DNA from: Tridacna crocea
Lineage: Eukaryota > Mollusca > Bivalvia > Cardiida > Cardiidae
Direction: 5' to 3'
Assembly (NCBI GenBank): GCA_943736015.1
Contig: OX031069.1
Location: 20,403,235 to 20,467,234, forward strand
Length of the DNA: 64,000 nt
How positions within the stretch are numbered: the stretch's first letter is position 1; each line of letters begins with the position of its first letter. The notes below the pieces were generated by a model. The model was given only the letters and a program-made list of their open reading frames with translations, was not told where the DNA came from and did not search any database. Positions 10,601 to 61,845 of the stretch are shown one piece after another. The position numbers and the translations under genes are program-made.

Positions 10601-13600
10601 TGATTATAAATCCAATGCATTCATTACTGAGATTTGAAAGATTATTGCATGAACTACTGTACGTTAAAAAGGTCCAAACTTTAAGAGTCACATGCACAAC
10701 TACACATCATAGAGATTCATTGTGGTAAGTTTCAAATTATTCTAATGGAAACTGTTGGAGAGTTACGTGCACAAGAAACTGGTAACGGACACACAACAGG
10801 TGCAGAAATAATATGACCATTTGGTCATATAAAAACAGACTGACTTAGGTGGATAAGAATTTTACAAGTGTATTAACCATGTACCAAACAATTCTGGGTT
10901 TTCATGATTCTGTAGAAGAGACCTTTTGAAAACATTGAGGGAAAAGGAGAAAATGCTGGTAACCAGCATTTTCTTCTTTTCCCACAATGTTTCCTACCCT
11001 GTCAAAGCAAGACTGCACCATTTGAACCACATTGAAATTGTTGTCTGCAAATGCTTTCAGTTTTGCCGAGGCTAACATTTTGTTGTCTGGTAAAGGTTTA
11101 AACCCCTTATTTGAAGAGTATTACTCATCTAGATTTTTACAGTGCACCAAAGCGCACCATGAGACAAGGGCTGAGCAATGATAGTATACATTACCTTTGG
11201 TTGTGCTATACCAAGAGCTTCAAATAGTTCAGGATGTTTCACAGGCAGTTCTATCACCTCTTTGATCTCTTTAATCTGTTTATCTAATCCTCCAACCATT
11301 TCGTAAGTGGAGTCTGGGACTTTTTCCACCATCATCAAACTAACAAGTGGATCAACCTACAGTAAAATTACAGATGCTTTTCATTTCTGTTACATAACTT
11401 ATGATTAGTCATTTAACTCTTTACAAAACAATAAAGTTAAACTCTTTACCACAACAAAATTTGGTTGGTTGTATTGGGGTTTAACGCCATTTTAACAGCT
11501 AAGGTCATATCATGGCGGTCGGTGACGCACATGTGTTTCCTGGCTTTCTCACACCGGTACTTACACAACTTTCTTTCCAAAGCCACCGACTACTTTTCTC
11601 ACAAGCTCCAGCAGAGGTGAGAGGCGAAAATACAACGGAAAGAAAGTTCGCCTCAACCGGGTATCGAACTCACAACCACAAGGTCATGAGTCCGACACGC
11701 TCACCACTGAGCCACCCCGGCGGGCACGACAAAATTTAAAGAGTAATCTAAAATGAAAGCATTTGCAGATGACAAACTAAATGTGAATAAAAAATTGAGA
11801 TGCAATTTTGGAAGGGTAGAAAACATATTGGGAAAAGGAGAAAATTCTGGTTACCAGCATTTTCTCCTTTTCCCACTATGCTTTCAAAAGCTTTCTTTCT
11901 CAGGGTCTTTAAAAGTCGGGGGGTTTTTTTGTGGGAAAAGCAGCATTTTCTCCTTTTCCAACAATATTTTCAAATGGCTCTTTCTTCAGGGTCATTTAAA
12001 ACTTGTGATTGTGTTGTAATGGGTTAACACACAGTCTTGACTTCTGACAGCTCTGAGAGAGAAAACTTCTAAAAACAATGTGGGAAAATGAGAAAATGCT
12101 GGTAACCAGCATTTTCTCCTTTTCCCACATTGTTTTCTACATTTCCCAAAAAAGTGTCAATCTTGGAGTCATACTTCATCTACTGTGTACAATTACTTTC
12201 AATTTGAACAAGCCTACAATTTTGTTGTTTGGTAAAGGGTTCACCATTGTACAGCTTATCCCAGATTTAGTTGCCTATTGTAACAATGTAGATCAAGATC
12301 AGACTGTTCAAAAAGTGAAGGCTGATGTTGATTCTTCACCTTTTGCCTCTTTGCCAGGCATACTGAAGAAAAAAACAAAACCAGCTTTGAAATTGCTTTA
12401 TCTGCATCTTAAGAACTGACACAGAATGTCCACCTTTCTTATTTAGTGCTACAAGTATGTTGTCTGCTCAAGTCATATTCTTTGAAGATTTGACCTGTCT
12501 TATATGACACATTACTCAACTGCACTCTCTAAACTGCTGATCATAGCTGAATGAAATGCTTCAAGTAGCGTTTTATTGAGTAAATGTTTATTTTAGTTTG
12601 AAATTCAAAGTAACTGTTTTTGCGTAAGAAAAAGCAGTCCTGTTCTGTACCCAGGATGCCCAATTTAGATAGATAAGTATTTGAAGAATGCCATCTAGCG
12701 GGAGATATGGCTACAAGCTTTAATCTCATCCTGTTTGCTTTCTCTGCTAAATATTAAATCATCTTCACAGCAAACAGTAAAAAGTATTATTTTTATATCT
12801 ATAAAGACTTTAAAGCGTATCAATATGGCATTGCAGAACTGCTGTTCTCATCAACAATTCTTTATGCTCTTTGATTCTGTCAAATATTTGAAGATCTATC
12901 ACTGGTTTTTTTTTTTTCATTCTACCACAAGTTGTTGCATTCACCATTAAAAGATTAGTTTTCTGACCTATTTTTGCCCCACTTTTTTTCAGCAGGATAT
13001 CAAGATTTCAGCCAAATTTCTTCTTCACAGTTGTCTGATTTGTTCTGTTTGTTTTCATTATCACATAATAATTACAATGTCCATATGAACCAAAAATATC
13101 ATTCTCTAGATATGCATTAGTTATCTGTCAAAACATGTGGCTTCAAAAGGTCTTCTGCATGAAAAGAAGAGGTAAATGATTAATTTGTGAAGTTCCCAAA
13201 TGACAAAATTTTAGACTAGTCCGAATTCAAAGCATTTGCAGATGACATAATAAACCTAACTCAAAAATAGAAATTTGTTTCCAGCAGGGTAGAAAACATT
13301 GTGGGAAAAGGAGAAAATGCTGGTTACCAGCATTTTCTCCTTTTCCCACAATGTTTTCAAAAGGCTTCTATCTCAAGGTCATAAAAACCAGGGATTGTGT
13401 GGTAAAGGGCAAATGCTGTTTAACAATATTTCAGTTATATGGCAGGAGTAAGAGCACCTATAGATCCATAATTTTCCTCGAGTTTCTTCACCAGTATTTT
13501 GTACATTAATCTTTTAATTTCTGATTGGCTAAACCATGTTCTGTTACTTTCACACTGACAAAATGCTGAAGAATAAGACTAACAATGTTCTTAAGAATGG

Positions 13601-61845: not shown

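Follow-up and report, generated by a model that had tools for sequence, protein, structure and literature searches.

Covariation between palindrome arms in a TTAA-flanked MITE family of Tridacna crocea: founder inheritance with a probable small contribution of copying between arms

The palindromes dispersed over a 64-kb stretch of Tridacna crocea DNA (hereafter the window) are the cores of one dispersed repeat, a TTAA-flanked MITE of about 227 bp. We showed that most of the covariation between their arms was inherited from three founders, A, B and C, and from a sublineage within A, which differed from one another by whole paired substitutions. Founder inheritance supplemented by rare template switching between the arms (quasipalindrome correction), which at the two pairs calibrated leaves an excess equal to about 0.7-3% of single-arm changes, is the explanation that we favour with moderate confidence. 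The effect of arm copying is small, and template switching is deduced here from statistics, not seen between a parent and its child.

The element and its copies

The profile built from the window has 227 columns, within which the stem is internal and off-centre, with 33 pairs around a one-base spacer (column 88); pairs are numbered k from the stem centre outward. TTAA was present at both ends of 73 of the 80 copies matching the profile end to end, and inside it lie TAACCCTTTACC-like inverted ends. In all three consensus sequences (A, B and C), both ends are TAACCCTTT(A/C)C or close to it, the right end of the A consensus reading TAACTCTTTACC.

After overlap removal, the window contained 126 element fragments, 70 of them near full length and 92 spanning the stem, and the other stretches available at that time contained 200. 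Fragments account for 22.4 kb of the 64-kb window. In 20 further 10-kb samples, positioned by hand and including two that adjoin the window, they account for 34.2 of 200 kb. In the genome as searched (1.05 Gb, 31 contigs), the central 31-mer had 191,599 exact occurrences, and 420,929 when up to two mismatches were allowed; at 227 bp each, 420,929 copies would equal about 9% of the genome.

TTAA, CC termini with a short inverted repeat, a short non-autonomous length and a high copy number fit a piggyBac-type MITE, as judged from these sequence features. Kolobok was rejected as the family, the termini of the element being CC or CT and those of Kolobok 5'-RR, a criterion taken from the cited part of PMC9587614. 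The piggyBac transposase domain had 118 matches listed in the genome. Five of these loci were fetched, three with TTAACCC ends but other TIRs and two without such ends, and the TIR of the MITE was found at none of the five. A number of the 118 domains have long open frames and identical scores, and are perhaps recently active. Among papers listed for palindromic TTAA MITEs or for template switching in MITEs, no title or abstract opening described this family. The window also carries an open frame of 388 aa (38779-39945) matching chondroitin N-acetylgalactosaminyltransferase (PF05679).

Subfamily A is represented in full length at 55242-55468 (plus strand), where the stem (55296-55362) is the perfect 33+1+33 consensus. 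Copies of subfamily B lie at 2049-2273 (plus), 59973-60196 (minus) and 63073-63302 (minus), and copies of subfamily C at 26670-26896, 47652-47878 and 63793-63998 (all minus). The B consensus stem differs from that of A at k3, k8, k13 and k20, and the C consensus stem at k3, k8 and k26, all of these differences being paired. Eight neighbour pairs of full-length elements, in the same and in opposite orientation, abut as if sharing one TTAA (17867-18294, 27045-27483, 29356-29816, 31654-32109, 32135-32591, 35335-36009 and 56005-56451); seven overlap by 2 bases in the model matches and one pair is one base apart.

Covariation and its descent from founders

Covariation was tested by age-matched permutation, shuffled and slid controls and a flank-only tree, in place of R-scape. 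The first-pass annotation had stated that substitutions in one arm are often matched in the other. Covariation was indeed above chance: 33 cells of the window stems carried a change in each arm, whereas shuffling gave 7.8 ± 2.5 (none of 500 shuffles reached 33) and sliding the partner by 1-3 columns gave 13-23 (69 of the 92 window stems, taken as 67-base stretches, 68 of them distinct). The frequency was overstated, 361 of 388 changed window cells being broken. Compared with their own founder consensus (A, B or C, copies outside the clusters being compared with A), the 92 window stems contained 27 changed-but-paired cells, 350 cells changed in one arm, and 11 changed in both and unpaired. Most changed pairs were thus broken by one arm, as expected by the annotation for independent drift.

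Most of the above-chance covariation in the window falls in five founder pairs, and among 243 stems 108 of the 163 complementary cells changed on both sides fall in k = 3, 8, 13, 20 and 26. Clustering based on the flanks only (194 of the 243 copies usable) assigned 125 copies to A, 15 to B and 8 to C, with 46 outside these three largest clusters, each of which has a perfectly palindromic consensus stem. Between A and B there are 78 differences in 159 flank columns and 8 in the 66 stem positions; the corresponding figures are 46 in 159 and 6 in 66 for A and C, and 84 in 158 and 6 in 66 for B and C, and in every comparison the stem differences are paired. Constraint acting on the founders is likely, since the stems of these subfamilies are 9-12% apart, always in pairs (5 of 5 differences paired, 0 unpaired), and their flanks 29-53%. 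In two small flank clusters, of 5 and 3 copies, the consensus stem contains 1 and 4 broken pairs, respectively, so that perfection of the palindrome is not universal among lineages. With growing flank distance, stem distance drops from about 0.7 to 0.4 of the flank distance; between lineages, then, the stem shows either stronger constraint or stronger homogenisation than the flanks.

The C/G pair at k26 defines the sublineage within A. Its 14 carriers require 3 changes on a flank-only tree of 145 copies, and the nearest relative of each of the 14 listed carriers has the same pair, which suggests that stem variants stay with their flanks. The annotation had named descent of the paired variants from a few founder subfamilies as the observation that would speak against arm copying. 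This is what was found for the bulk of the covariation, both for k26 C/G and for B and C, which differ in pairs. Ongoing arm copying was therefore rejected as the source of the covariation as a whole, most of it being founder inheritance. The residue did not follow this pattern on the flank tree: all 22 other paired variants need as many changes as they have carriers, 16 having a single carrier and six having two to four.

The eight palindromes quoted in the first-pass annotation are real, each place holding the stem with one or two changed-but-paired positions; seven of them also carry one to six broken pairs, which had gone unmentioned. In the stem at 17920-17986 (plus strand) the k26 C/G pair is a founder variant common to its nearest relatives, with no broken pair, and the stem at 54576-54642 (minus) has the same founder variant with three broken pairs. 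Private pairs were observed at k26 (A/T) in 12071-12137 (plus; two broken pairs), at k13 (G/C) in 18867-18933 (minus; six broken pairs), at k28 (G/C) in 29943-30009 (minus; one, at k25), at k25 (G/C) in 32241-32307 (minus; one, at k22) and at k22 (A/T) in 50184-50250 (minus; one, at k26). The last quoted stem (35837-35903), within the third copy of a tandem trio (35784-36009, plus), combines a private A/T at k22 with the founder C/G at k26 and a spacer T. At three of the quoted sites k26 C/G is thus the marker of one lineage, and at the six with private paired variants (those starting at 12071, 18867, 29943, 32241, 35837 for k22, and 50184) the four nearest relatives are without the pair. Two of the four nearest relatives of the 35837 stem show the left-arm change alone (A/C) at k22, which is likely an intermediate. 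The first copy of the trio (35335-35561, plus) shares TTAA with its neighbour, and the second (35560-35785, plus) has a left half like copy 3 and a right half like copy 1, with the joint in or near the palindrome and with broken pairs. Local recombination also acts here, the joining of neighbour-like halves in this middle copy having broken pairs, the opposite of correction.

Paired changes beyond the founders

In 180 A-type stems from the window and the sampled genome, 848 pairs were broken by one arm, 38 by both, and 66 were compensated, 15 of these at k26. These 180 stems were obtained from the 243 by dropping founder B and C haplotypes, stems with more than 6 gaps, and all but one satellite unit from each of the loci L007 and L011. 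When right arms were dealt among age-matched copies, 45.5 compensated pairs were expected (P 0.0005), and without the five founder pairs 42 were seen against 33 expected (P 0.04 in the same permutation). Many private paired changes are expected by chance and a small excess remains. With k26 excluded, the 129 copies with at most 7 stem changes had 15 compensated pairs against 7.3 expected (P 0.005), and there was no excess in copies with 8-12 changes (13 against 10.4) or with at least 13 (23 against 26.6).

Genome-wide, changes in one arm were found at 4,674 and 4,518 places for k=6 and at 4,245 and 4,327 places for k=12, and changes in both arms at 311 and 510 places, respectively; under independence, 110 and 96 doubles would be expected. 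When one arm at k=6 was paired with the other arm at k=12 as a cross control, 256 and 201 doubles were counted, 2.22 times independence, a factor that we read as the effect of unequal copy age. With counts scaled from the first 50 doubles listed, non-complementary doubles were near the age-corrected expectation (about 131 against 125-145 at k=6 and 133 against 109-126 at k=12) and complementary ones above it (about 180 against 100-120 and 377 against 87-104). The expected share of complementary doubles was taken as 0.41 to 0.49 at both pairs, and the single list at k=6 used 98 of 100 listed letters. As a share of single-arm changes, the complementary excess was about 0.7-0.9% at k=6 and 3.2-3.4% at k=12.

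Shuffling the types among the listed doubles gave a result without the need of a copy-age model. The types came, for each pair, from the first 50 entries of the list, which all fall on the first three contigs. At k=12, 37 of the 50 doubles were complementary against 18.5 after shuffling (0 of 20,000 shuffles as high), and at k=15 there were 36 against 26.0 (P 0.001). The type-matched excess was not clear among the 50 listed at k=6 (29 against 24.5, P 0.09) and was absent among those at k=2 (23 against 22.0, P 0.43). These four pairs suggest that the excess rises away from the fold point, and the aligned sample, in which 10 of 21, 11 of 18 and 30 of 47 doubles were complementary, is weakly in line with such a rise. 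Over the whole genome, doubles numbered 1,288 at k=2 and 311 at k=6, which may mean raised mutation near the hairpin tip, yet there were 1,388 at k=15.

The alternation of GGTAACC and GGTTACC in the window mostly corresponds to the orientation of the element: read in element orientation, the spacer was A in 143 of 179 A-type copies, T in 25, G in 5 and C in 6. Changes from A to T outnumbered those to G or C at the spacer (25 against 11) and not in the other A columns of the stem (92 against 148; P 0.0005), the share of copies with A-to-T being about five times higher at the spacer than at other stem A positions. For spacer-T copies with flanks, the nearest relative has A in 21 of 23 cases. A one-base spacer makes inversion a statistical signature only, and conversion by a copy lying in inverse orientation could produce the flips too. 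We infer from the sequence patterns that the residue of type-matched doubles and the A-to-T excess at the spacer would be due to template switching in replication or repair.

Between copies of the same insertion, in 12 satellite units of L007 and L011, no terminal arm-copying event was caught: there were two one-arm differences and no paired one. The tandem arrays at these two loci, on two contigs, have units of about 2.1 kb and 1.64 kb, and each unit holds the same kind of truncated MITE, with the right arm consensus and the left arm changed.

Explanations and known systems

In the favoured account, founders with perfect palindromes amplified, and their copies then drifted and lost pairs. A nascent strand that has passed the centre could fold back or switch strand and copy one arm onto the other, by which a one-arm change would become paired in a single step, and a strand switch across the centre would flip the spacer. 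As the first pairs would prime the copying, the excess would be expected to rise away from the fold point. The palindrome would have to be favoured in some way at the founder level, because the main founders stay perfect while the copies do not, and single-step paired changes would let a founder alter its stem without a mismatch stage. Arm-to-arm copying, as proposed in the first-pass annotation, is thus supported as a rare process by the type-matched excess at k=12 and k=15 and by the low-change copies, and not as the main cause. A broader proposal, which we put forward tentatively, is that copying between arms by template switching goes on all the time in hundreds of thousands of near-identical palindromes, more so with distance from the fold point, and supplies the one-step paired changes that keep the stems of successive founders perfect while the flanks diverge by up to half.

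All paired variants could instead have arisen in master elements, each rare one marking a very small lineage. This would account for the main subfamilies and for k26, but 22 of the 23 tree variants need as many changes as they have carriers (16 of them single-carrier), and about 100 T/A and 80 C/G places at k=12 (scaled from 10 and 8 among the 50 listed to all 510) would have to be split into many lineages. Flank tests covered the k12 T/A, k12 C/G, k15 T/A and non-complementary carriers, leaving out those with fewer than 80 flank columns (2 of 10, 1 of 8, 1 of 10 and 1 of 10, respectively); locus L044 was left out of both the flank and the outer-stem comparisons. Among k12 T/A carriers (8 of 10 loci usable) the nearest neighbour by flank was at a mean distance of 0.301, and among k12 C/G carriers (7 of 8) at 0.282. 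Random sets drawn from ordinary copies gave about 0.19, so that neither group comes from one founder. No two usable k12 carriers were close by flank, the smallest distances being 0.203 (T/A) and 0.227 (C/G), and their mean nearest-neighbour distances to equal numbers of ordinary copies were 0.279 and 0.257. The flanks of k12 T/A and C/G carriers are also more diverged than those of ordinary copies; they would fit either older copies or many minor lineages, a choice that is the chief source of doubt. Two or three paired changes occur together in some carriers (k12, k25 and k28 in L028). The excess also seems to depend on the distance from the centre, which speaks against a purely founder origin, and we find such an origin rather doubtful.

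The constraint on founders might also be exerted through a two-fold symmetric protein site, whose half-sites change together with binding specificity and which requires no hairpin; in piggyBac, the two C-terminal domains of a transposase dimer would be the partners. Such a site would explain why the stem is more conserved than the flanks between main founders and changes only in pairs, and piggyBac ends carry 19-bp palindromes, one palindrome being bound by two CRDs according to the cited part of PMC11707139. The palindrome of the MITE is 67 bp long, however, internal instead of near the ends, and perfect over its full length in the main founders, while private paired changes and spacer flips are left unexplained. 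Nor did any of the five fetched transposase loci match the TIR of the MITE; on the whole, we consider a symmetric protein site unlikely.

That the doubles in general arose from two separate hits, whether in hypermutable columns or because the copies are old, seems quite improbable. Non-complementary doubles are close to expectation, the doubles at k=2 and k=6 as a whole are nearly explained, and old copies show no excess, all as two hits would predict; but the T/A and C/G doubles at k=12 (10 and 8 of the 50 listed) are far above expectation, and at k=12 and k=15 the types of the first 50 listed agree more often than after shuffling. A two-hit origin would also make carriers old and damaged. 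With gaps allowed, 9.4% of outer pairs were mismatched in the k12 complementary carriers (29 loci, pooled after the groups had been seen) and 8.3% in 49 ordinary copies, against 15.8% in k12 non-complementary carriers (n=10; P 0.03) and 18.4% in k6 A/T carriers (n=10; P 0.0008, both compared with the k12 complementary carriers). These outer stems speak for a one-step origin at k=12 and a two-hit origin at k=6. When each k12 group was compared separately with the full set of 19 non-complementary carriers, no difference emerged (P 0.11 for T/A, 0.38 for C/G and 0.06 for A/T), and k15 T/A carriers were no cleaner, with 14.3% outer mismatch against 6.1% in k15 non-complementary carriers (n=4). A larger contrast seen in ungapped comparisons, in which non-complementary carriers appeared to have wrecked outer stems (41% against 10%), was withdrawn; it came mostly from indels, and at 16% once gaps are allowed the contrast is modest.

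That single copies are selected for a hairpin in RNA or DNA is highly improbable in spite of the very stable predicted fold of the strand (z -15 for one perfect stem, one of five folded stretches), since 848 of 952 changed pairs in the 180 copies were broken by one arm, G.T and A.C mismatches were equally frequent (208 and 228), with no wobble favoured on either strand, and selection on each of hundreds of thousands of copies would be hard to envisage. A search of the window against Rfam at gathering thresholds gave no match and, there being no wobble preference either, fold selection at the RNA level in copies was rejected. Of the selection on the fold suggested by the annotation, what stands is a likely constraint on founders; for individual copies it is not supported, most changes breaking pairs and G.T being about as frequent as A.C.

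Covariation in a repeat family alone is no evidence of a functional fold, because founders and template switching both produce covariation. How paired stem changes originate without a mismatched stage is a long-standing question. The cores of this family, 191,599 of them exact and 420,929 near-exact, are presumably neutral for the most part and could be used to measure at what rate, with what spectrum and with what positional profile arm copying proceeds in a genome, free of selection on a product.

The element resembles piggyBac-type (TTAA) MITEs in its TTAA ends, in its CC-type termini with a short inverted repeat, in being far too short for a transposase, and in the abundance of piggyBac-type transposase domains in the genome carrying it. 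What sets it apart from them is the palindrome in its interior, whose 33-bp arms match perfectly in the consensus of each of the three largest subfamilies. With Kolobok, as far as described in the cited part of PMC9587614, it shares the TTAA target duplication and not the termini (5'-RR in Kolobok, CC here).

For inverted-repeat arms in yeast, the cited part of PMC8604942 describes template switching that leads to arm homogenisation and spacer inversion, recurrently and in parallel, short spacers being favoured. The arms made complementary beyond chance at k=12 and k=15 and the signal of spacer inversion are similar here, although the yeast cases are multinucleotide changes in genes with reconstructed parents, whereas ours are mostly single pairs revealed by statistics over a repeat family. 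In RNA genes, template switching maintains hairpins according to the cited part of PMC8794818, with one-step compensatory changes in stems, loop inversions and enrichment on terminal branches, three features with counterparts in the reading favoured for the MITE. Unlike these RNA genes, which are under selection, the transposon copies studied here need no constraint on a product.
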